From positions 6,843 through 50,049 of the forward strand of contig JAAFHV010000033.1 of the NCBI GenBank assembly GCA_013297655.1: a stretch of DNA of 43,207 nucleotides, written 5' to 3'. How positions within the stretch are numbered: position 1 is the first letter of the stretch; every line of letters starts with the position of its first letter. The notes under the pieces were generated by a model. That model had not been told where the DNA came from. It was given only the letters and a program-made list of their open reading frames with translations, and did no database searches. Shown here piece by piece: positions 2,461 to 35,565 of this stretch. The position numbers and the translations under genes were made by a program. This DNA is from Myxococcales bacterium (lineage in GTDB: Bacteria > Myxococcota_A > Polyangia > Polyangiales > Polyangiaceae).

Positions 2461-4142
2461 AGCGTCCGATTCTCACGACCCTGCTCCTCGTCGTGGCCTG
2501 CTCCTCGGAGCCGCTGCCCGCGGTCGGCCACGTGCTGGTTCACTTCGACACGGACGCGCCGCTGCCTTCTTCGCTCGAAGCGCCGCCGGTCGAACCGCTC
2601 TTCGACCGGCTCCTCGTCGAGGTTTTTGCGCCTGGAGCGAATTCGCCGTGTGCGGGATGCCGGCGCGAGCTCGCCCTCGACGCGCAGAGCTTTCGAGACC
2701 ACACGGCGTCGATTCAGGTGCCCACCCCCGCGGGGCGAGAGGGATACCGAGCTCGCACCCGCCTCTTTCTCGCTCGGCATGCCCTTGGTGGCGAGCCGCT
2801 CGCGGACGGAGCGGTAGAGACGGTCGTCGCGCTACCCCCCGCTCCTGTCGATGGACCTACCGAGGTCACGATCTTCCTCTCGGCCGAGGGCGTCGGGACG
2901 AAGCGTGGCTCGCTCGAGGCGCCGCTCCCACCGGATCCCGGGCCGCCCTCCGGAAGTAGAGTAGGCACCTGGTCCGGGGCTGTCCGAAAGGCGTGTCCCG
3001 ACCGAGCACGCGCGGGCGAGGTCTGCGTTCCCGGCGGTGCGTTTTGGATGGGCCGCCCAGGGGAGCGGCCCCGCAGCGCGGAAGTGTCGACCTCGCGCCC
3101 GCGTCTCGTCGTGATGGAGCCGTACTATCTCGACGAGGACGAGGTTTCGGTGGCCGACGTCCGGTCATTCGAGGTCAGCGAGCCGGGAATTTCGGCGTGG
3201 TCGGGTGCTTCGGCCGGCGCGACGAAGGAGGACTTCTGCACGTTCACCGCCGAGAGCGGCCCGAATGACGCTCTCCCCGTCGCCTGTGTCACCTGGCCTG
3301 CGGCGCGACACTACTGTCTTTCGATAGGCAAGGATCTCCCGACAGAAGCGCGCTACGAGTACGCCGCGGGAGCGTTCGCGGGGCGTCGATTCGCTTGGGG
3401 CGACGATCCACCCTTGTGTGGCGACGCGGTGTGGGGCCGTGGCGGGGGAGGCGTGCTCGCGCCGATCGCCGCGCCGTGCCGTGCCGAAAGGAGCGGACCC
3501 GCGTGTGTCGGTCCAGGCTGCGAGGCTGGCCGCGCGCGCGACGTGGTCAGGCTCGACGGGGGTACGATCCGCGATCTCGCGGGCAACCTATCCGAGTGGT
3601 CGCTCGACCGTTTCAACAGCCAGGACGAGGCGTGTTGGGCGGCGCCCGGGCTGCGGCGCGACCCGCTTTGCACGCTCGCAGGGGCCGGTGGCCTCCGCGC
3701 CTCGACGCGCGGAGGTTCATGGCTTGCGGTGGGCAGCGCTCTCGCGGCGTCGGCGCGGGATTCGCTCACGTTCGCCGTGCCCGACGTCACCGTCGGCTTC
3801 CGCTGCGCACGCGACGCGACGCCGAATCGGTGTGGGCTGCTCCGCCCGGGCCTCTATACGGGAACGACCTCGGGTGGCGAGAACGCGGTGTTGCTCACGG
3901 TCGGAGTGGGATGCTCGGGCGTCGTCTCCGCGATTGGCGCGCGTGAGAGCGGAGAGCCCTTCTCGCTGATCGGTCACATCGACTCCGAAGGGCGGGTCAG
4001 CCTCGATGGGATGGATTTCACCGGAGGCGGCACCCAGTCGTTCGTCGGAGACGTCGTCGACGATACGCACATGGCCGGGACGTGGACGTCGAGCTCGCGA
4101 CGATCGGGGAGATGGCGCGTGTCGCCCAAACCCGTGCGGTGA
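2457..4142 (+). CDS. Lipoprotein with non-catalytic FGE/SUMF1-like domain, second paralog
   Basis: GTG 2457 overlaps the upstream TGA by 4 bp and has GGGAGG ahead of it; upstream extensions of the frame lack a signal peptide. The 561-aa product begins with a clean lipoprotein signal (LLLVVAC, Cys15). A beta-rich domain starting HVLVHFDTDAP matches the same region of the preceding protein. Next is an FGE-type domain (CVPGGAFWMG, LPTEARYEYAAG, FAWGDD, GNLSEWS, TRGGSW, VGFRCAR), again lacking the cysteine pair after GGSW. A ~100-aa C-terminal extension (from GLLRPGLYTGT) looks like a small beta-barrel domain and is absent from the upstream paralog. The pair and the TPR/PEGA gene form one expression unit, suggesting an outer-membrane or periplasmic assembly. 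No substrate can be inferred. Confidence 0.88.
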   Translation: MKRPILTTLLLVVACSSEPLPAVGHVLVHFDTDAPLPSSLEAPPVEPLFDRLLVEVFAPGANSPCAGCRRELALDAQSFRDHTASIQVPTPAGREGYRARTRLFLARHALGGEPLADGAVETVVALPPAPVDGPTEVTIFLSAEGVGTKRGSLEAPLPPDPGPPSGSRVGTWSGAVRKACPDRARAGEVCVPGGAFWMGRPGERPRSAEVSTSRPRLVVMEPYYLDEDEVSVADVRSFEVSEPGISAWSGASAGATKEDFCTFTAESGPNDALPVACVTWPAARHYCLSIGKDLPTEARYEYAAGAFAGRRFAWGDDPPLCGDAVWGRGGGGVLAPIAAPCRAERSGPACVGPGCEAGRARDVVRLDGGTIRDLAGNLSEWSLDRFNSQDEACWAAPGLRRDPLCTLAGAGGLRASTRGGSWLAVGSALAASARDSLTFAVPDVTVGFRCARDATPNRCGLLRPGLYTGTTSGGENAVLLTVGVGCSGVVSAIGARESGEPFSLIGHIDSEGRVSLDGMDFTGGGTQSFVGDVVDDTHMAGTWTSSSRRSGRWRVSPKPVR

Positions 4143-4211
4143 GCCATCCCCGCCAACTGCCGCAGCCACTCCGTCGTTCCGCGTGGCGTAGCCTCGATAT
4201 AGCCTGGTCCC

Positions 4212-4751
4212 ATGAAGACCCGCGTCCTCTCCGCGCTCGTGGCCGTGCTCGTCGTCGCGTGTGGCTCGTCGTCGCCGCCGCCCGTGCCGCCACCTCCGGC
4301 TCCGTGTCACGACGCGCCGCCGCCACCGCCGCCGCCCGCGCTCACGTGCGCCCCGTGCCCTGCGTGTCCTTTGCCCGCGACGCTGCCGCCGGTTCCCACT
4401 ACGCCTCCGCCGTCCGCACCTCCCGTGCTCACCAAAGCGAGCGGCGGTCCACGAGGGACACGACCCTGCGTGTTTCACGAGAGCGTCGACGCCTACCCGC
4501 GATCGTGCGTCGTCACGACCGAGCCCGACGGCACCCTCCTCGTCACGGCGAAAGGCACCGCGCTCAATCCGAACAACGGTTTCTCCTTCAAGATGGGCGG
4601 CGGCCCCGACTCTTACGACGCGGTGGGCACTCTCCACGCGTTCGGGATCTGCAAAGGTCCGTTCGTCGGCAAAGTAACGACGTCGAAGGAGGGCAACACC
4701 ACCGCCTACGAGGTGCGCTTCAACGATCACTGCAAGATCGTGGTGCGCTGA
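4212..4751 (+). CDS. Small lipoprotein with proline-rich linker
   Basis: The 179-aa product starts with a canonical lipoprotein signal peptide (MKTRVLSALVAVLVVACGSS; lipid-modified Cys17). It is followed by ~60 residues very rich in proline with scattered cysteines (PPPPPPPALTCAPCPACPLP), a cell-wall-spanning type of linker. A compact C-terminal domain of ~90 residues (from RPCVFHESVDAYPRSC to the end) has four cysteines that could form disulfides. I do not recognise this domain. The gene follows the FGE-like cluster after 69 bp and may be read from it or from its own promoter. Confidence 0.8.
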   Translation: MKTRVLSALVAVLVVACGSSSPPPVPPPPAPCHDAPPPPPPPALTCAPCPACPLPATLPPVPTTPPPSAPPVLTKASGGPRGTRPCVFHESVDAYPRSCVVTTEPDGTLLVTAKGTALNPNNGFSFKMGGGPDSYDAVGTLHAFGICKGPFVGKVTTSKEGNTTAYEVRFNDHCKIVVR

Positions 4752-4966
4752 ACGACCGATCGCCGACGCGACGTGCTCGCTACGTAGGCTCGGTCGCGCG
4801 CACCAGGTCGTCGTTCGAAGTCGGAGCGTGGGCCGCGCTTCGCGTCGCGTATTCTCGCGCGCTTACGCGTGGCGGACTTGCCGAAACGCGAGGCGCCTAT
4901 TCGCGACTCTCGCGATGGCTTACGTTCTCGTAGAGTGCGTGGGGGCCCACGTCGCCGAGCCAAACT

Positions 4967-6787
4967 ATGATGCCCCTCCCGGAAAACGAAGCCGAGCGGC
5001 TCGCCGCCCTCGCCGACTACGCCATTCTCGATTCCCCTCCGGAGGGCGAGTACGACGACCTCGTGCGCCTCGCGTCGCTGCTGTGCGACGCGCCGATGGC
5101 GCTCGTCACCTTCGTCGACCGCGAGCGGCAGTGGTTCAAGGCGCGTATCGGCCTCGACGCGAGCGAGACGCCCCGCGAAAACTCGTTCTGCGCGCACGCG
5201 ATCCTCGACGACGTCGCCTTCGTCGTCCCCGACGCGCGGGAGGACGCTCGGTTCCGCGAGAATCCGCTCGTCGAAGGAGACGTGCAGCTCCGCTTCTATG
5301 CTGGAGTTCCGCTCACCGACCCGGCTGGCCTCAACCTGGGCTCGCTCTGCGTGCTCGACACGAAGCCGCGCCGGCTCACGGCGACGCAGCTCGAAGCGCT
5401 CGCTGCGCTGGCGAGGCAGGTCGTGTCGCTCCTCGTGAGCCGGCGACGTCTCCGCGATCTCGAGGCGGCGCGACGAGACGCGAAATTCGAGAACGCGCGG
5501 TTTTCTGCGTTCATCGACGCCGGGCCTGCGCTCGCGTTCATGAAGGACGACGAAGGAAGGTACGTCTTCGTGAACGACGCGATGGTGCGACGCTCTCGCG
5601 TCCCGCGCGAACGCTGGATCGGACGCACCGACGAAGAGATCTTTCCGCCCCTCGCCGCGAGCCTCCGCACCCAGGATCGCGCCGTTCTCCAGAGCGGTCG
5701 TATCCAGTCGTTCGAGGAGGCAGTGCCGTCGCCCGATGGCACGTGCACCTACTGGGCGACGCACAAGTTTCCGATCGAGAGCGCGCGCGGCGAGCGGCTC
5801 GTCGGTGGCATTTCTCTCGATGTGACGGAGCGGCGACACGCTGAAATGAAGCTCGCGGAGAGCGAAGCTAGGTTTCGGGAGACCCTCGACAGGCTAGCGG
5901 AGGGAGTGCTCGTCAGCGATGTCGAGACACGCCGTTTGCTCGACGCGAACGCGGCGTTCTGCGCGCTGCTCGGGTACTCCCGCGAGCGGATCGCGGATCG
6001 CACGCTCTCCGACCTCGGCCTTTGTGCGTCGCACGAGGCCTTCGCGGCACAGGTCGCGTCGGACCTCGAGCCCACGAAGGGCAAGAGCTACGACGCCGGG
6101 CGCGGCACGCTCCGCCACGCCGACGGATCCGATGTCCCGGTCGACGTTCGCATCACGCGCGTGCCGAACGGGCGCGCCGGCCTCTACGCCACGATCGTTC
6201 GCGACATTCGCGTCGACCTCGCGCGCGAGGCTGCCCTCCTCCAAAAACACGAGGCGCTCGAAGAAGCCAACGCGAAGCTGCGTGTGCTCTCCGTCACGGA
6301 CGGAATGACCGGGATGCAAAACTGGACAGCGCTCCAGCGTTCCCTCGCGACCGAGGTCGACCGCGCAGCGCGCTACGGTCGGCCGCTGGCGTTCGTCATC
6401 CTCGATATCGACGCCTTCAAGGCCTACAACGACACGTTCGGTCACCCTGCCGGCGACGAGGTGATCCGCAGAGTCGCGGACGTCATCAAGACGACCGTTC
6501 GCGCGACGGACATGGTCGCGCGCTACGGCGGCGAAGAGTTCGCCGTGGTGCTCCCCGACACGGACGCTGCGGGCGCGCTCGAGCTCGCCGAGCGCCTTCG
6601 CGCGCGCGTCGCGGAGTGCGTGTGGCCGCTCCGTCCCGTCACCGTGAGCGTGGGCGTCGCGAGCCGAGCGGCCACGATGGCCAACGCAGCCGCCCTCGTC
6701 GCCGCCGCGGACGGCGCGCTTTACCAATCGAAGCGCGCTGGTCGCGACCGCGTCACGTTCGCTTCGTCGAAGGGCGAGGGCGCGTGA
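4967..6787 (+). CDS. Diguanylate cyclase: GAF-PAS-PAS-GGEEF
   Basis: This is a 606-aa cytosolic signalling protein expected to make cyclic di-GMP from two GTP. Domain order: GAF-like sensor (~residues 25-155), PAS (~178-290; FMKDDEGRYVFVNDAM), a second PAS (~298-415; DVETRRLLDANAAFCALLGYS), short coiled linker, then GGDEF domain (~440-600). The active-site motif is GGEEF at residues 521-525, a functional variant. The product-inhibition site RxxD (RATD, 512-515) sits five residues upstream as in feedback-regulated enzymes. DID (480-482) and FGHPAGD (491-497) are also intact. No transmembrane segment is seen, so the input is probably an intracellular ligand or partner. ATG 4967 or 4970 could start it; no convincing ribosome site is visible. 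Its TGA overlaps a GTG that opens a tiny downstream ORF. Confidence 0.95.
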   Translation: MMPLPENEAERLAALADYAILDSPPEGEYDDLVRLASLLCDAPMALVTFVDRERQWFKARIGLDASETPRENSFCAHAILDDVAFVVPDAREDARFRENPLVEGDVQLRFYAGVPLTDPAGLNLGSLCVLDTKPRRLTATQLEALAALARQVVSLLVSRRRLRDLEAARRDAKFENARFSAFIDAGPALAFMKDDEGRYVFVNDAMVRRSRVPRERWIGRTDEEIFPPLAASLRTQDRAVLQSGRIQSFEEAVPSPDGTCTYWATHKFPIESARGERLVGGISLDVTERRHAEMKLAESEARFRETLDRLAEGVLVSDVETRRLLDANAAFCALLGYSRERIADRTLSDLGLCASHEAFAAQVASDLEPTKGKSYDAGRGTLRHADGSDVPVDVRITRVPNGRAGLYATIVRDIRVDLAREAALLQKHEALEEANAKLRVLSVTDGMTGMQNWTALQRSLATEVDRAARYGRPLAFVILDIDAFKAYNDTFGHPAGDEVIRRVADVIKTTVRATDMVARYGGEEFAVVLPDTDAAGALELAERLRARVAECVWPLRPVTVSVGVASRAATMANAAALVAAADGALYQSKRAGRDRVTFASSKGEGA

Positions 6788-22037: not shown

Positions 22038-23228
22038 ATGAACGCACACATGAGGGAGATCCTCGATCTCGTCGTTCGCTGGGTGCACGTCATCGCCGGC
22101 ATCATGTGGATCGGCAACTCGCTGCTCTTCAACTGGCTCGATCGGAACCTCGAGAAGGTGGAGGGCAAGGGCAAGCTCCACGAGGGCGAGATCTGGCTCC
22201 TCCACTCGGGCGCGTTCTACCAAGTCGAGAAGAAGCTGCTCGCGCCGGGCGAGATGCCCAAGGTGCTCCACTGGTTCAAGTGGCAGAACTTCACCACGTG
22301 GGCGAGCGGGATCACGCTCCTCATCGTCGTCTATTACATGGGGGGCGCTTCGCTGATGCCCGATCCGGGCGTCGCGCGGGTGCATCCGCATGCGCTCGTC
22401 GGCCTCGGTGTCTCGAGCCTCATCGTCGGCTGGATCGTCTACGACCTGCTCTGGCAGTCGCTCGGCAAGACGAAGCCGATGGTGGCGACGGTGCTCTCGA
22501 TCGCGGGCCTCTTCGCGCTCGGTTACGGGCTCACCCACGTGATGAGCGGGCGCGCGGCGTTCCTTCACGTCGGCGTGGTGATGGGCACGTGCATGACCGG
22601 CAACGTGTGGATGACGATCGTGCCCTCCCAGCACGAGCTCGTGAACGCGACGACGGAGGGCCGCGAGCAGGACAAAACCCTGAGCATCAAGGCCAAGCAG
22701 CGGAGCATTCACAACAACTACATGACGTTCCCGCTGTTGTTCATCATGGTGTCGAACCACTTCCCCGCCATCACGGGCGCGAAGCTGGGGTGGGCCGCGC
22801 TCTTCGTCGTGATGACGACTGGCGCGCTCGTGCGGCACTTCATGAACGTCCGGTTCGTCTACGCGTCGTGGTTTCCGGTCACGTGCGGCGTCGTGATCGC
22901 GGGGCTCCTCGGCACGTACGTGCTCACCGCGCGGAAAGAAGATCCGAACGCGGCCGGGGGCCCGAAGATCGCGTTCTCCGAGGCGCGCAGCATCGTGGAG
23001 GCGCGCTGCACGCAGTGCCACTCCGAGCACCCGACGGACGACATGTTCAAGGTGGCCCCGAACGGCGTCATGCTCGACACGCCGGAGCGCATGAAAATCA
23101 TGGCGCAACGCATGCGTGAACGCGCGTGCAACCTGAAGACGATGCCGCTCGCGAACAAAACCAACATGACCGATCCCGAGCGCGAGATCCTCGGCCGTTG
23201 GGTCGCCCAAGGGGCCAACACCGACTGA
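22038..23228 (+). CDS. puuD: Membrane-bound urate oxidase PuuD with cytochrome c domain
   Basis: The 396-aa protein has the PuuD layout: an N-terminal integral-membrane urate hydroxylase domain of about eight helices (WVHVIAGIMWIGNSLLFNWLD, IWLLHSGAFYQVEK, LHWFKWQNFTTWASG, MGTCMTGNVWMTIVPSQ, RSIHNNYMTFPLLFIMVSNHFP) and a C-terminal cytochrome c domain (~310-396). The latter has CTQCH (Cys324-His328) for covalent heme and Met369 or Met377 as probable axial ligand. The family oxidises urate to 5-hydroxyisourate and passes the electrons to the respiratory chain instead of making peroxide. No other purine catabolism gene lies in the window. ATG 22038 precedes a second in-frame ATG at 22050; either fits. 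Confidence 0.94.
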   Translation: MNAHMREILDLVVRWVHVIAGIMWIGNSLLFNWLDRNLEKVEGKGKLHEGEIWLLHSGAFYQVEKKLLAPGEMPKVLHWFKWQNFTTWASGITLLIVVYYMGGASLMPDPGVARVHPHALVGLGVSSLIVGWIVYDLLWQSLGKTKPMVATVLSIAGLFALGYGLTHVMSGRAAFLHVGVVMGTCMTGNVWMTIVPSQHELVNATTEGREQDKTLSIKAKQRSIHNNYMTFPLLFIMVSNHFPAITGAKLGWAALFVVMTTGALVRHFMNVRFVYASWFPVTCGVVIAGLLGTYVLTARKEDPNAAGGPKIAFSEARSIVEARCTQCHSEHPTDDMFKVAPNGVMLDTPERMKIMAQRMRERACNLKTMPLANKTNMTDPEREILGRWVAQGANTD

Positions 23229-23308: not shown

Positions 23309-24040
23309 ATGCATCGTGCAAGTGTATTCGCGGCCGCGCTCGTGCTCGGCTCCGCGGCCTGCGGAGATCCTTCGGCGCGGTCCGCGGCCGTGCCCACGCT
23401 CCCGGCGGCGACCGCACCTTCGTCGACCGCCGAGCCGACGGGTGGGAAAAATAAGGGTCCCTTGGCCCCGGCGCCCGATTGTGCGGCCACCCTCGTCACG
23501 CGCTCGGTCGTCGATCGCCTCGGCCGCAAGCCCGGGGAGTGGACGCGCGTAGGCACCGTCGTGGTCGCGATGAAGGACCGCCGGCCCACCCGTTTCGAGC
23601 TCAAGGATCGTGAAGGTGGGGCCGTTTCCGGGCTCGACGCGCCGGATTCGGCGCCCGCGTTTCGTGATGCGGTGCGAGCCGAGGTCTGTCGTGTCGGCGG
23701 CGTGTCCGTCGTCGCGGAGGCCGAGGCACCCGAGAACGGAGCCTATGCGCTCAGCGTATGGAAGCCCGTCAGCCCGAACGAGAGCGCCGATCTCGACTAC
23801 GTCTGCAAAGGACCACCGAAGGGGGTCGGGCAGGGGCTCGAGCCCGCGCAGCTTCGTGTGGTCGCGATCGAGGCGTACGAGGTGATGCTCGGCTCTCCCA
23901 AGTGGCGGGCGTTCTTCCGCGCGCTCCACGACGAGATCCGCAAGAAGGACGCGAACGTCGACGAGGTGCGCCGCGCAAAAGCGACCGAGCTGCGCTCCGC
24001 AGTGGCCGATTGCTGGTTTTCGAGCATCCTGGCGCCATGA
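23309..24040 (+). CDS. Lipoprotein, unknown function
   Basis: ATG 23309 opens a 243-aa protein with lipoprotein signal (FAAALVLGSAACGDP; Cys18). After a Thr/Ala/Pro-rich linker the folded part starts near LAPAPDCAATLVTR. It contains scattered cysteines, and the last ~70 residues are helical and charged (RAFFRALHDEIRKKDANVDE). No family is recognised. The long upstream frame is antisense and shadow composition. Its TGA overlaps the start of the next lipoprotein gene (ATGA), so the two are coupled. Confidence 0.7.
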   Translation: MHRASVFAAALVLGSAACGDPSARSAAVPTLPAATAPSSTAEPTGGKNKGPLAPAPDCAATLVTRSVVDRLGRKPGEWTRVGTVVVAMKDRRPTRFELKDREGGAVSGLDAPDSAPAFRDAVRAEVCRVGGVSVVAEAEAPENGAYALSVWKPVSPNESADLDYVCKGPPKGVGQGLEPAQLRVVAIEAYEVMLGSPKWRAFFRALHDEIRKKDANVDEVRRAKATELRSAVADCWFSSILAP

Positions 24041-24705
24041 GCACGGCCCTGAAGACGACGCGTTCGATCCCGCTCCTGCTGGTTCTTGCCGCGCCGTTCG
24101 CCGCCTGCGGTGGCGCGGTGCAAGGGGGCACGAGCGACGCCGGCGGTGACGCGAAGAGCGCCGGAACGAGCACGAGCGCCCCGACCGAGAGCTGCGAGAG
24201 CGTAGGTGGCAAGTGCGGGCCGACCCCGGATTTGCCATGCAACGCCGACGAGTCGAGCGTCCGTGCGCGCTGCCCAGAGCTCGAGCCCTGCTGCGTGAAG
24301 CTCCCCCCGCTCGGGCCTGGCGAGTGCCGCACCAACGCCGACTGCGGGTCGCAGAACACTCCCGGTCGATCGCCGGGCACTGGCACCTGCGAGAGCAACG
24401 CCTGCGTGTGCGATGCCGTGTCCACGCGCCTCGAGAACGGCCGCTGCGGTCCCGTGCCCGAGGCAGGCGAGAGCTACCTCTGCACGATCGGAACGGCGTT
24501 CCCGAAGTCGTCCGCGGTCTGCGGCGTGATCCCGTGCGATCCGGGCGCCGTCTGCGCGCTCTCCGGCGCGACCGCCCAATGCATCCCGCCGCAGATGAAA
24601 CGCACGGGCGAAGAGACGTGCGTGCTCGTGAACTGCGGCGCGATCTTCTGCGCGCCGGGCCTCGTCTGTACCGACCCATCGCGCGGAGTGTGCAAAGCCG
24701 AGTGA
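24037..24705 (+). CDS. Cysteine-rich lipoprotein
   Basis: ATG 24037 overlaps the preceding stop and gives 222 aa: lipoprotein signal (LLLVLAAPFAACGG, Cys24), Gly/Ser/Thr linker, then about twenty cysteines in short spaced clusters (GGKCGPTPDLPCN, CRTNADCGS, CESNACVCD, CVLVNCGAIFCAPGLVC). The pattern CxxNxDC and CxxxxCxC resembles small EGF-like or Dickkopf-like disulfide modules found in many myxobacterial surface lipoproteins. Probably an adhesion or binding protein at the cell surface; this is inference. Confidence 0.78.
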   Translation: MSTALKTTRSIPLLLVLAAPFAACGGAVQGGTSDAGGDAKSAGTSTSAPTESCESVGGKCGPTPDLPCNADESSVRARCPELEPCCVKLPPLGPGECRTNADCGSQNTPGRSPGTGTCESNACVCDAVSTRLENGRCGPVPEAGESYLCTIGTAFPKSSAVCGVIPCDPGAVCALSGATAQCIPPQMKRTGEETCVLVNCGAIFCAPGLVCTDPSRGVCKAE

Positions 24706-28124: not shown

Positions 28125-28182
28125 GGCGCGAGCATGTGGCCACCCCGGCGCCGAAACCAAGCTAAAAAATAGCCAAACGCGA

Positions 28183-28214
28183 CGTCGCCAGGACCCCGAA
28201 GGACCCTGGCGACG
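28183..28214 (-). terminator. Probable terminator of the cytochrome-lipoprotein operon
   Basis: CGTCGCCAGG (28183-28192) pairs perfectly with CCTGGCGACG (28205-28214), a 10-bp GC-rich stem with a 12-base loop. On the minus strand it follows the stop at 28251 by 36 bases, and a TTTTTT run lies a further ~17 bases on (RNA sense). The distance from stem to T run is longer than in classic intrinsic terminators. Confidence 0.55.
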
Positions 28215-28250: not shown

Positions 28251-29987
28251 TCAGTCTTCGCCGACGAACTTGGCGGACTGCGCCTCGAGCACGCAGGTGG
28301 TGCCGCTGAAGCGCTGCGCGCCGGGCTTGGAGCCGAGGTTGTCGCTCGGGAGGAGCGAGTCGGACTCGACGAGGTTGTGGTACACGTCGACGAACTCCGC
28401 GCGGCGCTGCGACAGCATGCGGAGCGTGTCCTCGGTGAACGTCGCCGCGCTCGCGGTCTTGCGGTCGGCGCAGGCCTTGCCATAAGCCTCGAGGGTCGCG
28501 GTGTGCGCGGCCGCGTCGTCGGTCTTGGCGATGCGAGCGGCGAGGCCCTTCGCGCCACGGGCGGTCGACTTTGCGAGGTTCGCGCCGAACTGCGCCTTGA
28601 GGTCGGCAGGATCTTTCCACGTCGCGGGGAGCGCGTCGGCGAGGGCGCAACGGGGCGCCGAGAACGCGGGGGTGGTGAAGTCGGTCATGAGAACGTCGGC
28701 GACGAAATCGGCGTCGACGAGGCCCTGACGGACGAGCTCCTGGACCGCGTCGACGTCGGCGTAGCTCTTCTCCGGGCCGTTCATCGGGAAGATGGAATCG
28801 CCGCTTTGACCGCCGATTTTGCTCCCGAACTTGGTCAGCGTCTCGCTGTAGGCCTTCGAGTCGACGGAGAGCGAGTCGATCGTGGGGAGCTTGAAGGCGA
28901 CGCTCTGCTCGAGACCGAGCTCGACGCCGGTGCCGGTGCGCGGCGCGCGCAAGAGGGGGCTCACCACGAACGCGCCGGGGAGCATGCTCGAGAACGTGCT
29001 CACCGTTCCGAAGCGCTGGCTGTTCTTCGAGTGCGCCGCGATGAGGGTGCCCTCACCCACGTCGCAGAAGAGCTGCGTGAGCACACCTTTGAGGTCGCCC
29101 GCGGTCTTCGCGCGTGTGACGCGGCCCTTCGTGTGGAGGTGCTCCGACGCGATGACTCGCTTCTCCATGTCGTCCGCGCGGGTCACCTTCGAGAACATGC
29201 GGTTGAAGGTGGCGTCCGGCGACTTGGGGTCGGAGACGGTCATCCAGGTCGACGTCCAATTGGCCCAGGAGTCGTGGAGCTCCTTCATGATGGGGCCACC
29301 GGACGTGTGGCAGCTCATGCACTCGAACGTGGGCTTCGCGCCCTTCGCCTGCGAGGGGACCATGGTGCCGTCGCCCTTGCGCACCCAGGTGCCGTTCTCC
29401 TCTTTCCAGTACACGAATGCCTGGATTTTCTCGCTCCAAGCCATCACTTCGGTGCCGTCTTGCGGCGCGCCGTTTCCGGAAGCGAACGAGGCGATGTAGA
29501 GCTTGTCGCTCGTGGCTCCCGCGCCGCCGGCGACCACGAAGCGGTACGCGTTGTCGAGCGCGGGCTTGTCGCCGAGCTCCGACACGACGAAGAACTCGGG
29601 CTTCGTGGCGGGGGTGGGCGCGGGGGACGGCGCGGCCGAGCCGGAGCCCGTCGCGGAGCCCGAAGGAACGGCGGAGCCCGATCCGGTGGGAGCCGGGGCA
29701 GCGACCGCGACACCTTCGAGGCGATCGAGGATCGCGGAGAGCTTGGTCGGACACGCCCCGGTGCCCTTCGCGTTGATGCGCTTGCCCTTCACGACGAGCG
29801 TGCACTTCGCGGTGCCGAGCACGTTCGTGAGGAACACGTCCTCCGGCACCCCCGCGGCGGTGACGTCGTCGACGGTGGTCTCCTCCTCGCCGGGCTCACT
29901 CGCGCCGCAGGCCGGGAGCGCAAAACCCGAGATGGCGGCAGTGGAGAGCGCGAGCAACGGCAAGAGCGAGCGGCGAATGGCCTTCAT
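28251..29987 (-). CDS. CxxCH-containing lipoprotein, paralog 2 (c-type cytochrome-like)
   Basis: ATG 29987 gives 578 aa with lipoprotein signal (ISGFALPAC, Cys27). An acidic stretch (EPGEEETTVDD) follows immediately. A Pro/Ser/Gly/Ala-rich linker at ~96-130 leads to the main domain. One heme-binding CMSCH lies at 223-227, followed by GGPIMKELHDSWANWTSTW, the core shared with the upstream paralog. The ~310 C-terminal residues are a separate helical domain with several cysteines. A single covalent heme c is expected after export; the function is unknown. The gene is third in the minus-strand operon and is preceded by an intercistronic hairpin. Confidence 0.82.
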   Translation of the reverse strand: MKAIRRSLLPLLALSTAAISGFALPACGASEPGEEETTVDDVTAAGVPEDVFLTNVLGTAKCTLVVKGKRINAKGTGACPTKLSAILDRLEGVAVAAPAPTGSGSAVPSGSATGSGSAAPSPAPTPATKPEFFVVSELGDKPALDNAYRFVVAGGAGATSDKLYIASFASGNGAPQDGTEVMAWSEKIQAFVYWKEENGTWVRKGDGTMVPSQAKGAKPTFECMSCHTSGGPIMKELHDSWANWTSTWMTVSDPKSPDATFNRMFSKVTRADDMEKRVIASEHLHTKGRVTRAKTAGDLKGVLTQLFCDVGEGTLIAAHSKNSQRFGTVSTFSSMLPGAFVVSPLLRAPRTGTGVELGLEQSVAFKLPTIDSLSVDSKAYSETLTKFGSKIGGQSGDSIFPMNGPEKSYADVDAVQELVRQGLVDADFVADVLMTDFTTPAFSAPRCALADALPATWKDPADLKAQFGANLAKSTARGAKGLAARIAKTDDAAAHTATLEAYGKACADRKTASAATFTEDTLRMLSQRRAEFVDVYHNLVESDSLLPSDNLGSKPGAQRFSGTTCVLEAQSAKFVGED

Positions 29988-30023
29988 GATTCCTCGATTG
30001 GGTAGAAAAACAGAATTCTTACG

Positions 30024-30048
30024 GGCAGATCCGAACGTTCGGATTGCC
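30024..30048 (-). terminator. Intercistronic hairpin (possible attenuator/terminator)
   Basis: ATCCGAAC-GTTCGGAT (30029-30044) is a perfect 16-bp palindrome, extended by GGCA/TGCC at both ends with one bulged G, giving a ~12-bp stem. It begins 3 bases after the stop of the upstream cytochrome-like gene on the minus strand, and a TTTTT run lies about a dozen bases downstream. It may uncouple expression of the last gene, stabilise the upstream mRNA, or terminate partly. Confidence 0.5.
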
Positions 30049-30050
30049 AA

Positions 30051-31652
30051 TTATTTTTCGGCCGGCAAGAGCGGGAGCGGGACCCGCGAGCCGGGGAACA
30101 TTTTGGTCGCGAGCTCTTTGCGATCCGTCGATCGTTTCTTCAGCTCCGCGCGACCCTCGGTCGTTTGCACCTTCGCGAGCTCCGCCTTGATGCGCGGCAC
30201 GGCCTCGGTGAGGTACGCCGTTCGTGCGGCGGCGACCTTGTCTTTGGCGCCGTCGTCGAGGAGCGTTTTGGCGTAGTCGCGGCGCGGACCGGCTGGGATG
30301 GCGGCGTCGACTTGGGTCCGCAGCACCGCGCGGACATGGGCGTCGACCTTGGTCGCGTCGGTCGGTAGCTTGTCGAGCACCTTCGGGTAGACGGCGCAGC
30401 GGGTGGGGGAGAACACGTCGTTCTTCTCGTCGAGGAGGCGAATCGCCGTCACCGTCGGGAACGAGACGACGCCCTTCTTTTGAAGGCCGCGTTCGATGCG
30501 TTTGTCCATCTCGGAGCGCACCGGCATCATCACCGGGAACACGTCGAGGGAGTAGGAGAGCGGCCGCACGATCGAGCTCCCGAAGACGAACGGGTCGACC
30601 CACACCTCGAGCGGCACGGTCTCGGTGCCGGTGGCGTAGCGGAGCTCCGTCTCGCAGAACACGCTCTTCAAGAGCCCGCCGATGCCCTTCGGCTGGTCGC
30701 CGTCGATGTTCGCCTGCACGAACCCGGTGCCGGTGAGCACGCTGCCGTCTTGTTTGGGGAGGCCTTCGTTCCAGGCCGCGGTGCCGGCGACCATGATCTT
30801 CTCGAGGTCGTTCGCGAAGCTGATGCGGGGGTGCGATTTGTCGAGCGAAGCGCTCTCGCTCACGATCGCCTTGGTGTCACCGCTGATGTTCGAGTCGACG
30901 GGGAGGAGCTTGTGGGTAGATACCCAGTTCGACCACGGCTCGGACAGCTCGTTCATGAGCGGGCCCATGTTCACGTGGCAGTCGTTGCACTGGCGATCTT
31001 TGGTGCTCGGTGTCTTGGCGACGCGCTTCGTGGTGGGCTTCTTCTCGTACACGAGGACGGAGTTGTCCGGCATGAGCCGAATCCGCTGCATCACGCCGGG
31101 GCCCTTCGGATCGGGGCCAGGAGAGAACACGTAGAAGTTGTAGAGGCCAGTGCGGCGGTCGAGCGCCATCACCTCGACGCGGTCGAACACCATCGTGTCG
31201 CCGCGTTTGCCGGCTTCGGTGTCCGGATCGCTGAAGAGCGCCATCATGAGGCTGTAGCTGCCCCATTGTGGATCGTAGACCTCGGCGGGCGGCACACGAT
31301 CGGGCGTGTTGCAGCCGGTGACGATCGCGCGCGGGAGGATGGTCCTCGTCTTGGAGGTGCCGCTCTCGCTGCGCGTTTGTGCCTCTTCGACGACGAAGAT
31401 TTCTTTCGAGTCGGTGCGCGAGCAGGCGCGGCCCATGCCGAAGAGCTGCTCGGCTTGGGCGTAGTTGGCGGGGACCTTCTTCAGGTCTTTCCGCAGCAGG
31501 TCGGCGACGCGGTCGTCACCGAAGAGGCCGTCGGCCTCCGCGATGTCTTCTTCGGACTTCTCGATCTCTTCGTCGGGAGCGCCGCCACACGCGGGGGCGA
31601 ACGCTGCCACGAGGAGCGCGGAGAAGAGCCCGAGGGCCCCCCGGAGCTTCAT
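30051..31652 (-). CDS. CxxCH-containing lipoprotein, paralog 1 (c-type cytochrome-like)
   Basis: ATG 31652 overlaps the stop of the upstream lipoprotein gene by 4 bp and gives 533 aa. Lipoprotein signal FAPAC (Cys22) is followed by an acidic stretch (APDEEIEKSEEDIAEAD). A long N-terminal domain (~45-215) includes VFDRVEVMALDRRTGLYNFYVFS. Heme motif CNDCH lies at 222-226, followed by VNMGPLMNELSEPWSNWVSTH, which aligns with the downstream paralog residue for residue in several places (GP.M.EL..W.NW.ST). A long C-terminal domain follows. It is probably a periplasmic or surface heme protein; a redox role is inferred only from the heme motif. Confidence 0.85.
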   Translation of the reverse strand: MKLRGALGLFSALLVAAFAPACGGAPDEEIEKSEEDIAEADGLFGDDRVADLLRKDLKKVPANYAQAEQLFGMGRACSRTDSKEIFVVEEAQTRSESGTSKTRTILPRAIVTGCNTPDRVPPAEVYDPQWGSYSLMMALFSDPDTEAGKRGDTMVFDRVEVMALDRRTGLYNFYVFSPGPDPKGPGVMQRIRLMPDNSVLVYEKKPTTKRVAKTPSTKDRQCNDCHVNMGPLMNELSEPWSNWVSTHKLLPVDSNISGDTKAIVSESASLDKSHPRISFANDLEKIMVAGTAAWNEGLPKQDGSVLTGTGFVQANIDGDQPKGIGGLLKSVFCETELRYATGTETVPLEVWVDPFVFGSSIVRPLSYSLDVFPVMMPVRSEMDKRIERGLQKKGVVSFPTVTAIRLLDEKNDVFSPTRCAVYPKVLDKLPTDATKVDAHVRAVLRTQVDAAIPAGPRRDYAKTLLDDGAKDKVAAARTAYLTEAVPRIKAELAKVQTTEGRAELKKRSTDRKELATKMFPGSRVPLPLLPAEK

Positions 31653-32878
31653 TTTGCGCCCTTGGTCCAGTCGGCGCAGAACGCGCTCGCGGTCTTCTGG
31701 GTGCACGTGCCGGCCTTCTCCACCGCGCGCGCGGGAGCGGTGAGCACGATGTCTTTGCCGTAGGTCTCGTTGCAGAGCTTGGAGAGGTTCTCGCCGAAGT
31801 CGAAGTCGTTCTCCAGCTCGGCCACGCGCTGGGCGGGCACGTCACAAATGGTGAGCTGCTGCGACTCGGTGCCGTCCTTCAGCTTCGCGCGACGGCAGCC
31901 CGGGGGGAGCTTGTCGGCCGAGGCCCAGGTGCCCTGGAGGAAGCCGTTCAAGCCGGGGGGCAACGCGTCGTAACGGCAGCCGCACTCGAGCGATGCGCGG
32001 ACGACGAGCTCGGTGATGTGCGGATCCGACATGCGCCAATCGACACCACCGTTTTGGAGACGGTTGACCGACATGCACGCGTACATCGATTGTTGCGGCT
32101 CGTAGCCTGCGCTGTTCGGGGCGGCGACCTTCACGCCGAGGCCCTCCGCTACTTTCCAGTTCTTCGCGGTGCCGAGGCTGTTTCGCTCGCAGGCGGCCTT
32201 CAGCTTCGCCTTCTTGTCGGCGTCTGCGGTCTTGCTCGCGAGGTAACAGGCGGCCGCGCGTTGGTACGCGATCTCCTTGGTTTTTCCCTTCTCTGCGGCG
32301 AGGCGCATGGAGTCGGAGATGAGCGTGGTCGCCGCGCCGCGGGTGTTGAACTGACCCTTCATACGGACGAGCTTCGGGTCGATGCTGGCGTCCAGGTTCT
32401 CCTTCGACGAGAGCACCGCCGCGAGCTCGCTGTCGATCGCGCCGGAGGCGTACGTGTTCTTGCCGTTCGCGTCGTACTGGCCTTGGCCGTCGACGTCGGA
32501 ATACACGGAGGTGAAGAAGCACTGGAGCGGCTTGCCCTTCACGATCTCGGTCGCCTTCGTGACCTTCTTGCCGTTCGAGACGGCCATGTACTCGCAGTAC
32601 TCTTGGCCGCGATCGAGCTCGCCGTCGACGCCTTCGCGGTCGCCGCACTGCCAGCGCACCACGCCGCCCGCCGTCTCTTGCGCCTTCACGGCCGAGTGGC
32701 GCGTGATGTTGCCGTCACAGAGCTCGGCGAGCGTCCAAATCGTGGCCGCGGACTCCGGCGTGATGTCGTCTACCGAGGTGCCCTCTTCTTCCTCGGCGGG
32801 GGCAGCGCTGCAGCCCATCGCGACGGAAGAGACGAGGACCGAAAACGCGGAGACAGCCAAGATTCGGAAGACGCTCAT
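31649..32878 (-). CDS. Cysteine-containing lipoprotein heading the cytochrome operon
   Basis: ATG 32878 starts a 409-aa lipoprotein (SVLVSSVAMGC, Cys22). The upstream open frame is unlikely coding. Acidic run APAEEEEGTSVDDITPE follows the lipid anchor, as in both downstream cytochrome-like proteins. The mature protein has many cysteines in pairs (CEYMA, CFFTSV, ACYLASK, CGCRYD, FCADW) but no CxxCH, so it is probably disulfide-bonded. No family recognised. It is the first gene of the operon and its TGA overlaps the next ATG, suggesting stoichiometric partners. Confidence 0.8.
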   Translation of the reverse strand: MSVFRILAVSAFSVLVSSVAMGCSAAPAEEEEGTSVDDITPESAATIWTLAELCDGNITRHSAVKAQETAGGVVRWQCGDREGVDGELDRGQEYCEYMAVSNGKKVTKATEIVKGKPLQCFFTSVYSDVDGQGQYDANGKNTYASGAIDSELAAVLSSKENLDASIDPKLVRMKGQFNTRGAATTLISDSMRLAAEKGKTKEIAYQRAAACYLASKTADADKKAKLKAACERNSLGTAKNWKVAEGLGVKVAAPNSAGYEPQQSMYACMSVNRLQNGGVDWRMSDPHITELVVRASLECGCRYDALPPGLNGFLQGTWASADKLPPGCRRAKLKDGTESQQLTICDVPAQRVAELENDFDFGENLSKLCNETYGKDIVLTAPARAVEKAGTCTQKTASAFCADWTKGAK

Positions 32879-33444: not shown

Positions 33445-35565
33445 TCAGGGCGTGGGGCCGGGCGTCTTCTCGGTGCGCTTCGGGCCACCATGATAGGGCC
33501 GCGCCTGCACGATGAGGACGTCCTCTCCGCGGAAGAGCCACTCGATGTCGAGCGGCGTGTCGCTCGGGAACACGGTGCGGATCTTCTGCGCGGCGTCGGC
33601 GAGCCGCTGAACGCGCGCGGTCGTGAGCACCGGTTTGCCCTTCTGCGGGTTCGGCACCTCCCGCACCCCGCCGGCCGGATCGAACACCAGCATCGTGTCC
33701 TCGTCGGAGCGGGAGACCACCCGGAGCGCCTTGTTGAACACGTTGTAGAGCAAGATCTCCGGCACCTTCTTGCCGTCGACGACGCGGATCCCGAGGCCGC
33801 TCTTCGCGTTGATCGTGAGCACGTTCTTCTCGTCGGGGTTCGTCGGGTGCGCCGTGACGAGCACCCCCGCCGCCGTCGCGTCGACCCCGAGCTGCACCAG
33901 CACCGCGCCGTACACCTTCTTGTGGTCGATCCCGTAGAGCTCGCGCTCCTCGAAGGCGGAGAGGTTCCACACGCTCGCCCACACGCGCTTCACGGCCTCC
34001 GCGACGGCCGCTTCGCCGCGCACGTTGGGCACCGTGTCGTAGAGGCCCGCGCCGGAGAAGCCCTTGAGATCCTCGGCGTTGGTGGAGCTCCGCACGAACA
34101 CGGGAGGGTCGCTCGCTCCTCCGTCCCCCGCCTGGGCCCCCGCGTCGCCGCCCGCGCCGGTCGCGGAGAGCGCCTTGAGAGCCACTCCTAATTTGGATAC
34201 GAATGTCGGGTCGATCGGTGCCTTTACGATGGACTCGCGAAGCTTCGTGAGCCTTGTTTTGCGCTCTTCGAGGCTGCCTTTGAACTTGGGGTCCGCGAGC
34301 ATCGTGTCGATACTAGCCTCCAGCCAGGCAGACCGTACGTGCGCCGCGTAATAAGCAATCGGCACACCGAAGCCCGCTGGCACGGACACCCCCGCGAGCT
34401 TCGCCGACACCACCTGTCCGAGGTTCGCGGTCTTCGCCCCGTAGCCGGTCGCGTCCGTCGCGTGGAGGCCGTCGAGGGGGCGGAGCTCCGTCGCGGAGAG
34501 GTCGGCGCGGGGGACCGCCACCGTCGCGAGCGCCTTCTTCGCGGCTCTTTCCGCGTCGACCTCGGCCTTCGTCGCGAGGCGGATCGAAGCCGACGTCGCG
34601 GTCGCCTCGAACACCACGTCTTTGCCGCCGAGCGCCGCGTACGTCTTCGCCGCGCCTTTGAGCCCCACGTTCGGGATGTCCCACGCCGCGGCGCGCAGGT
34701 TCACGTGGGAGAGCGGCGTCGAGAACGTCTGCGACACGATCCCGGCGACCTTGGTGATGTCCGTCAGCGGCTCCGGCAAAATCACGATTTCGTCCGGCGC
34801 GAAGGTGAGGCTCTCCGCCTTCTCACCCGCTCCCACGATGCGGAGCTTGCCTATCGCGCGGCCGAGGTGGAACGGCTGATAGCCGGCTGCTTTGTACACC
34901 TGGTCGTTCGTAATCGAGGCGATCTCCGGGGCCTGCTTCGCGACCGCTTCTTGTTCGTCGGAGGCGGGGCGGAACTTCACCTTCGCGGCGAGGTGGAAGG
35001 TGGCCTTCACGCGCTCGTAGGCGAGGCGGAGGTGCGCCACCGTGGCCTTGTCGCCGTCCCAGAACGCGAGGGTCCAGAGGTCCGCCTGCTCGTGGTGCAC
35101 GAGGTAGAGCATCAAGAAGCTCGGCTTGTCCTTGCCGTAGTTCTTGTCGAGCTCGCGCACCGCCTCCGGCGTTCGTGGGGTCTTCAGGAGCTCGGCGAAG
35201 ATGAAGTCCTTGTGGAGCGGGTAGAGGTCGGCGTCCACGTAGTAGGTCGCGTTCGTCTTCAGATCGACGACGATCTTGGTGAAGCGCTCGCCGCCCACCA
35301 CCCGCGAGTAGGCGCCGAAGTCCTCGTCGTTCGTGATCTTGGGGATCCACGTGGGCCTCGCGCGCAGCTCGTCACGGCCCGTCGCCGTCGCGCCGTCGGC
35401 CGCGCTATCTCGACCGTCGGCACTCGCGACCGGTGCGCTCGCCTCGCTCGCGTCGAGGGTGCTCGAGGTGCCTCCGTCGCCACCGCAGCCGGACCGGCAG
35501 GCCCCGCAGGTCAACGCGAAGAACAAGTAGAAGAGGAGCGAGCGTTTCGAGAGCAAGGCTTTCAT
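33445..35565 (-). CDS. Lipoprotein with glucan-water-dikinase-like phosphohistidine and ATP-grasp domains
   Basis: ATG 35565 starts 706 aa with a hydrophobic signal and cysteines (LFYLFFALTCGAC), a lipoprotein-like anchor, then a Ser/Asp/Ala linker to ~75. An N-terminal domain (~85-270) is of unknown fold. A phosphohistidine (PEP-utilising mobile) domain follows with His287 in TPLSHVNLRAAAWDIPNVG. Then comes a PPDK_N/ATP-grasp domain (~345-700) with GAKTANLGQVV, PPVFVRSSTNAEDLKGFSG, AGLYDTVPNV, and terminal IVQARPY. The order His domain then ATP domain, and the motifs SHVxxRA and VRSSxNxEDLxGxSxAGLYD, match glucan water dikinase better than PEP synthase. A carbohydrate or other dikinase is possible. 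ATP access outside the cytoplasm is a puzzle. Confidence 0.87.
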   Translation of the reverse strand: MKALLSKRSLLFYLFFALTCGACRSGCGGDGGTSSTLDASEASAPVASADGRDSAADGATATGRDELRARPTWIPKITNDEDFGAYSRVVGGERFTKIVVDLKTNATYYVDADLYPLHKDFIFAELLKTPRTPEAVRELDKNYGKDKPSFLMLYLVHHEQADLWTLAFWDGDKATVAHLRLAYERVKATFHLAAKVKFRPASDEQEAVAKQAPEIASITNDQVYKAAGYQPFHLGRAIGKLRIVGAGEKAESLTFAPDEIVILPEPLTDITKVAGIVSQTFSTPLSHVNLRAAAWDIPNVGLKGAAKTYAALGGKDVVFEATATSASIRLATKAEVDAERAAKKALATVAVPRADLSATELRPLDGLHATDATGYGAKTANLGQVVSAKLAGVSVPAGFGVPIAYYAAHVRSAWLEASIDTMLADPKFKGSLEERKTRLTKLRESIVKAPIDPTFVSKLGVALKALSATGAGGDAGAQAGDGGASDPPVFVRSSTNAEDLKGFSGAGLYDTVPNVRGEAAVAEAVKRVWASVWNLSAFEERELYGIDHKKVYGAVLVQLGVDATAAGVLVTAHPTNPDEKNVLTINAKSGLGIRVVDGKKVPEILLYNVFNKALRVVSRSDEDTMLVFDPAGGVREVPNPQKGKPVLTTARVQRLADAAQKIRTVFPSDTPLDIEWLFRGEDVLIVQARPYHGGPKRTEKTPGPTP

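Follow-up and report, generated by a model that had tools for sequence, protein, structure and literature searches.

A three-gene operon of exported lipoproteins

The DNA analysed here, referred to as the window, is a stretch of 43,207 nucleotides from a Myxococcales bacterium of the family Polyangiaceae (contig JAAFHV010000033.1), and our subject is a three-gene operon on its minus strand that encodes a cysteine-rich lipoprotein, P0003, and two large lipoproteins, P0002 and P0001, each with one CxxCH heme c motif. We call P0001, P0002, and their homologs the CYT family, and P0003 the partner. The features of the operon, all on the minus strand, are listed in the order of transcription.

31649..32878, minus strand: gene 1, P0003, a 409-residue Cys-rich lipoprotein (15 Cys) and conserved partner (translation; homologs adjoin P0002/P0001 homologs)
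31649..31652, minus strand: 4-bp overlap of genes 1 and 2, ATGA (open reading frame coordinates)
30051..31652, minus strand: gene 2, P0002, a 533-residue lipoprotein of the single-CxxCH family, 'MNEL' type (translation, homolog search, tree)
30975..30989, minus strand: CxxCH of P0002, CNDCH (C222-N-D-C225-H226; translation)
30026..30048, minus strand: small, weak hairpin between genes 2 and 3, palindrome TCCGAACGTTCGGA (z -1.64)
28251..29987, minus strand: gene 3, P0001, a 578-residue lipoprotein of the single-CxxCH family, 'MKEL' type (translation, AlphaFold2 model)
29307..29321, minus strand: CxxCH of P0001, CMSCH (C223-M-S-C226-H227; translation, conservation in homologs)
28164..28214, minus strand: strong hairpin (28183-28214) followed by a T-run (28164-28169), the likely operon terminator (z -4.35)

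All three proteins begin with a hydrophobic stretch and have a lipobox whose last residue is Cys (VAMGC in P0003, APAC in P0002, and LPAC in P0001). P0001 and P0002 contain exactly one CxxCH each, as the original prediction had claimed, and P0003 contains none. The hairpin 3' of gene 3 was equalled in 0 of 200 shuffles, and the T-run lies about 14 nt beyond it, an arrangement resembling a rho-independent terminator that does not satisfy the strict rule of the terminator scanner. P0003-P0002-P0001 is one operon of secreted lipoproteins: the lipoprotein character, 4-bp overlap, hairpin, and terminator noted for it were all found, with the qualifications that the hairpin before gene 3 is present but weak and that the terminator is likely although short of the strict rule.

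The CYT family and its predicted heme site

P0001 and P0002 match each other by BLASTP with an E-value of 9e-11 across 300 columns, well past their shared core, and one profile of about 510 columns fits both end to end; in each, the CxxCH is followed by G-P-x-M-[K/N]-E-L...W..W. On these alignments the two are full-length ancient paralogs of one family, and the earlier picture of a common core set within long unrecognised flanking domains has to be replaced by homology over the whole length. Nothing scored above cut-off in Pfam or NCBIfam for P0001, P0002, P0003, or their distant relatives, and profile searches of PDB sequences gave no relative for CYT or the partner, only a single chance match for the partner (E 0.17). 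Two weak Pfam candidates were rejected: PSCyt3 (PF07627, DUF1588), which matches P0002 locally just before and around the CxxCH (E 0.097, 13.4 bits vs a gathering cut-off of 27), and a class I cytochrome c, for which the best match in P0001, Cytochrom_C_2, lies outside the CxxCH region (E 0.39, 12.1 bits vs a cut-off of 26.5). In the open-access literature we found no paper describing the family. The view that this is not a described cytochrome family agrees with all of these searches, and neither of the two developments named at the outset as speaking against the original prediction, a match to a characterised family or a loss of the CxxCH and of the partner gene in close homologs, occurred among exported homologs.

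The AlphaFold2 model of P0001, built with 48 family members as input, is confident (mean predicted local distance difference test (pLDDT) 86.8, predicted template modelling score 0.88), its N-terminal half being rich in beta structure and its C-terminal half helical; the model of P0003 reached a pLDDT of 83.8. The whole 552-residue P0001 model had no Foldseek match, to a solved cytochrome c or otherwise, at E<=0.001 in the PDB and viral models (best VIA-align Z 3.4, to unrelated folds), and the whole P0003 model had none at E<0.001 in the PDB (best VIA-align Z 3.8). These comparisons, made with whole models and not domain by domain, suggest that the CYT proteins may have a new fold.

Across 66 aligned CYT homologs, His227, Trp241, Trp244, Ser443, and Arg446 are invariant (66/66), and the CxxCH is present in 60, both of its cysteines being missing as a pair in the other six. 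A strongly hydrophobic N-terminus is found in 51 of the 60 CxxCH homologs and a lipobox in 46; the Cys-less six have neither. In place of the CxxCH stretch these six carry GPF[ED][SA]H...MKEL..PW..W, where the second residue before the His is acidic, and six plasmid homologs carry the same GPFDSH-type replacement. The Cys-less members, from actinobacteria, Azospirillum, and rhizobial plasmids, keep the His and form one group nested among CxxCH proteins (tree support 99/92). Because of this nesting, and with the tree rooted at its midpoint only, the CxxCH looks ancestral in the family. The expectation that close homologs would keep the motif holds throughout the exported branch. A module defined by CxxCH lipoproteins likewise describes that branch, but the module itself extends further: cytoplasmic-looking Cys-less versions exist, and therefore the heme c motif is not its defining feature. 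A second pair of cysteines, C308 and C447, is a putative disulfide: the two are present or absent together (both in 57 of the 66 homologs, neither in nine), the covariation expected of such a bond; three proteins that retain the CxxCH, two of them cyanobacterial and one myxobacterial, also lack this pair.

P0001 and P0002 are candidate c-type cytochromes in the broad sense: both are exported and have a CxxCH, and the host, whose genome contains cytochrome c assembly genes, should be able to mature heme c. Heme binding by CYT proteins is well supported, their actual loading with heme being predicted from these features. In the cytoplasmic-looking Cys-less members, where neither heme c maturation nor the disulfide would be possible, the same His would most likely serve to bind heme b. 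Alternatively, the His/Glu/Met site could be primarily a site for a non-heme metal, inherited from a non-heme hydrolase or oxidase, with heme c a later acquisition of the exported branch that serves as an electron relay. The acidic residue two before the His in the Cys-less GPF[DE][SA]H would suit such a site, and Cys-less members sit with peptidases and phospholipase D, but their nesting within CxxCH proteins, which under midpoint rooting makes the CxxCH look ancestral, speaks against this order of events, and we consider this history quite improbable.

The partner and its genomic company

The partner carries the motifs RGQEYCEY and R-x-SDP-x-I and a conserved E-Y-x-E-[W/Y] motif. Distant CYT proteins are adjoined by a protein of about 330 residues, PART, which is fused to CYT in Azospirillum and elsewhere is extended by phospholipase D or subtilase sequence. 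The same motifs follow in the same order in P0003 and PART (RW..aD, [RQ]-x-EYCE[YW], N-x-x-A, and R-x-SDP-x-I), and hhalign aligned them with a local probability of 66-69% (E ~5e-5) and a global E-value of 5e-6; in controls, column shuffles scored about 20 bits and the reversed profile 16 bits, one of 60 shuffles giving a 10-column artefact. Homology between P0003 and PART is therefore probable. A profile match between P0003 and CYT reflected only the lipoprotein signal and was rejected.

CYT homologs occur in Myxococcota, Cyanobacteria, Actinomycetota, and Alphaproteobacteria. Named myxobacterial relatives belong to Polyangiaceae, Myxococcales, Nannocystaceae, and Kofleriaceae; Azospirillum, Gaiellaceae, Geodermatophilus, and Nostoc turned up when genome contigs were scanned, and Rhizobium, Mesorhizobium, Bradyrhizobium, and Microvirga when plasmids were searched. 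The host genome (9.9 Mb, 97.6% complete) has a single copy of each type, at the present operon. Wider sampling of two of these groups shows the genes to be rare there: 4 of 296 genomes from the Geodermatophilus phylum have the partner, and 3 of 292 from the Nostoc phylum have CYT. Among 290 genomes of the class, P0002 relatives were found in 15, P0003 relatives in 17, and both in 13 (Fisher p 2e-17), well beyond chance expectation, so the co-occurrence check that had been proposed for the paralogs and their heme-less partner came out positive.

The co-occurrence extends to gene order. At loci of relatives, annotated with a simple gene caller, the usual order within the same family and order is P0003-P0002(-P0001), and Nannocystaceae and Kofleriaceae have larger clusters (CYT-P3-P3-CYT-CYT). 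For 45 of 73 CYT genes a partner lies within 1.2 kb and for 11 more in the same 6-kb cluster; eight are at contig ends and nine stand alone. PART is beside or fused to CYT in all 13 CYT-bearing plasmids. As proposed, then, the partner gene is conserved with the paralogs, P0003 belonging to a family conserved alongside CYT.

Further plasmid records contain PART without CYT, and we inspected seven such loci. In five the next gene encodes a DyP-type peroxidase (Mycetohabitans, Acaryochloris, Nostoc, Bradyrhizobium, and R. sophoriradicis), and in S. meliloti the neighbouring gene gives a weak DyP match. At three actinobacterial-type loci (L118, L123, and L141) a PART paralog, DyP, Cys-less CYT, and PART occur together. 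Other oxidative neighbours of CYT/PART loci are a LodA/GoxA quinoprotein oxidase, tyrosinase, multicopper oxidase, DsbH-like thioredoxins, and a redoxin.

Several of these loci hold further genes. On plasmids of Mycetohabitans, Acaryochloris, Nostoc, Bradyrhizobium, and Rhizobium (L155-L160), an undescribed protein of about 330-580 residues and a DyP-type peroxidase form a conserved two-gene unit, which may point to a natural partner of these DyPs. One neighbour of the Bradyrhizobium pair is a LodA/GoxA quinoprotein oxidase and another matches LodA_N weakly (L151:14616-16598 and 3287-5005); the same locus holds a tryptophan halogenase and a Ferritin-like (PF12902) protein. At rhizobial, azospirillum, and one actinobacterial locus (L148, L150, L152, L117, and L119), the Cys-less pair is accompanied by S8, S53, S1, and M4/M36 peptidases, a caspase-like protein, and phospholipase D, sometimes in fusion with the partner. 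Among myxobacteria, the position directly after one P0002 homolog, where the closest relatives hold a P0001 homolog, is taken by a SelP_N/redoxin-like lipoprotein (L071:10228-10842, plus strand); lipoproteins with 89 Cys in about 640 residues end Nannocystaceae clusters (L103:10141-12054 and L105:17721-19679; no Pfam match, one tested); and FG-GAP/UnbV_ASPIC (CRTAC1-like) proteins of about 1000 residues sit beside CYT genes of Nannocystaceae-type and other myxobacteria (L070, L084, L101, L102, L103, L105, L108, L109, and L115), some of these loci also having a DsbH/DUF255 thioredoxin. The FG-GAP/UnbV neighbours at these nine loci were dropped as a key to function since they yield no mechanism, and a neighbouring NiFe hydrogenase at a cyanobacterial locus was judged incidental.

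Near the operon in the window, and on the same strand just upstream of it, lies a gene for a 706-residue protein with an exported or lipoprotein-like N-terminus and a PPDK_N ATP-binding domain (33445-35565), apparently an extracytoplasmic pyruvate-phosphate-dikinase-like protein. On the plus strand are a urate oxidase (22038-23228; Urate_ox_N, E 4e-97) that has one CxxCH and is probably a PuuD-like membrane enzyme carrying a cytochrome c tail, and a 222-residue Cys-rich (23 Cys) lipoprotein-like protein with no Pfam match (24037-24705).

A candidate two-component heme oxidoreductase

We interpret the operon, at about an even chance, as an exported, membrane-anchored two-component heme oxidoreductase that is peroxidase- or oxidase-like. 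The CYT protein would carry a single heme centre with the CxxCH His as axial iron ligand, heme c being attached by the two CxxCH cysteines in the exported branch and heme b probably taking its place in the cytoplasmic branch. The invariant His, two Trp, Met/Glu, Ser, and Arg would line the heme pocket or active site, and P0003 would be a dedicated partner, either a subunit or an oxidised protein substrate. The chemistry would most likely be a one-electron oxidation, because PART pairs with CYT or, where CYT is missing, with a DyP-type heme peroxidase. This position of PART is the strongest argument for an oxidoreductase; catalysis, a physical CYT-P0003 complex, and the role of the partner are predictions from sequence. 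Of the two roles suggested originally, a surface redox module is favoured by DyP taking CYT's place beside PART, and a scaffold found no support.

Several observations weigh against this interpretation. The homology of P0003 and PART is no firmer than probable. The slot shared by CYT and DyP is an analogy only, because hidden Markov model comparison found the two unrelated, with no DyP domain (DyP_N/Dyp_perox_C) in CYT and no CYT profile match in DyPs. The plasmid DyPs are mutually homologous, so their link to PART may go back to a single ancestral event, and in Paracoccus (P. denitrificans) the gene next to PART encodes a 502-residue protein that is not DyP, a tyrosinase lying on the other side. 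The pattern of oxidative neighbours, drawn from the CYT/PART loci alone, is suggestive of an oxidoreductase. Finally, the partner is not always needed, since nine of the 73 CYT genes have none nearby.

The partner also invites a more specific proposal, in which P0003 is the substrate and CYT a heme enzyme that would install or oxidise one of its residues, comparable to the action of MauG or MbnH on their partner proteins. The close gene pairing with a partner bearing a conserved Tyr and the aromatic motif E-Y-x-E-[W/Y] is consistent with this, as are the pairing of PART with DyP and its proximity to LodA/GoxA quinoproteins, which derive their cofactor from protein residues. However, the diheme peroxidases bCCP, MauG, and MbnH, which resemble CYT in being exported heme c enzymes that in some cases act on a partner protein, carry two CxxCH motifs, whereas each CYT protein has exactly one and no family match; moreover, no modification of the partner is known and solo CYT genes exist. 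We regard modification of the partner as fairly unlikely.

Another possibility is that the heme is structural and that CYT binds, folds, or signals for its partner with no electron chemistry. There is a myxobacterial precedent in the pilus protein TfcP of Myxococcus xanthus, a noncanonical cytochrome c with one CxxCH that was repurposed as a stabiliser (PMC8833165). TfcP and CYT are both myxobacterial, exported, single-CxxCH proteins that are non-respiratory by context and have a protein partner, but CYT proteins are lipoproteins of 530-580 residues with a different partner and no cytochrome c domain match, a distinction drawn from the description of TfcP. Of the features of TfcP (a single CxxCH, a conserved distal Cys, and a PilY1 role), CYT has the single CxxCH; its C308, 82 residues further along, covaries with C447 in the manner of a disulfide, and we recognised no pilus genes in annotated CYT loci. 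Retention of the rest of the family signature by Cys-less homologs would suit a structural heme, but the His and two nearby Trp are invariant even where the cysteines are gone, and oxidase and peroxidase neighbours recur. We think a purely structural role improbable.

The oxidoreductase that we favour would stand apart from the DyP-type peroxidases (PF20628/PF21105, TIGR01413) as well, which occupy the same genomic slot beside PART outside myxobacteria but have no hidden Markov model relation to CYT. DyP proteins bind heme b non-covalently and have a ferredoxin-like fold, whereas the P0001 model has no fold match in the PDB. The boldest form of our interpretation, which we offer tentatively and think rather doubtful, is a new heme enzyme fold within a two-protein oxidation module spread across phyla, using heme c outside and heme b inside the cell on the same His and interchangeable with DyP beside one conserved partner. 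CYT is in any case a multi-phylum family with neither a Pfam or NCBIfam model nor a known fold, in which the heme-type His outlasts covalent attachment, and it may serve as a natural experiment on the interconversion of heme c and heme b proteins. The pairing of PART with either CYT or DyP also makes a concrete prediction about the physiological partners or substrates of some bacterial DyPs.
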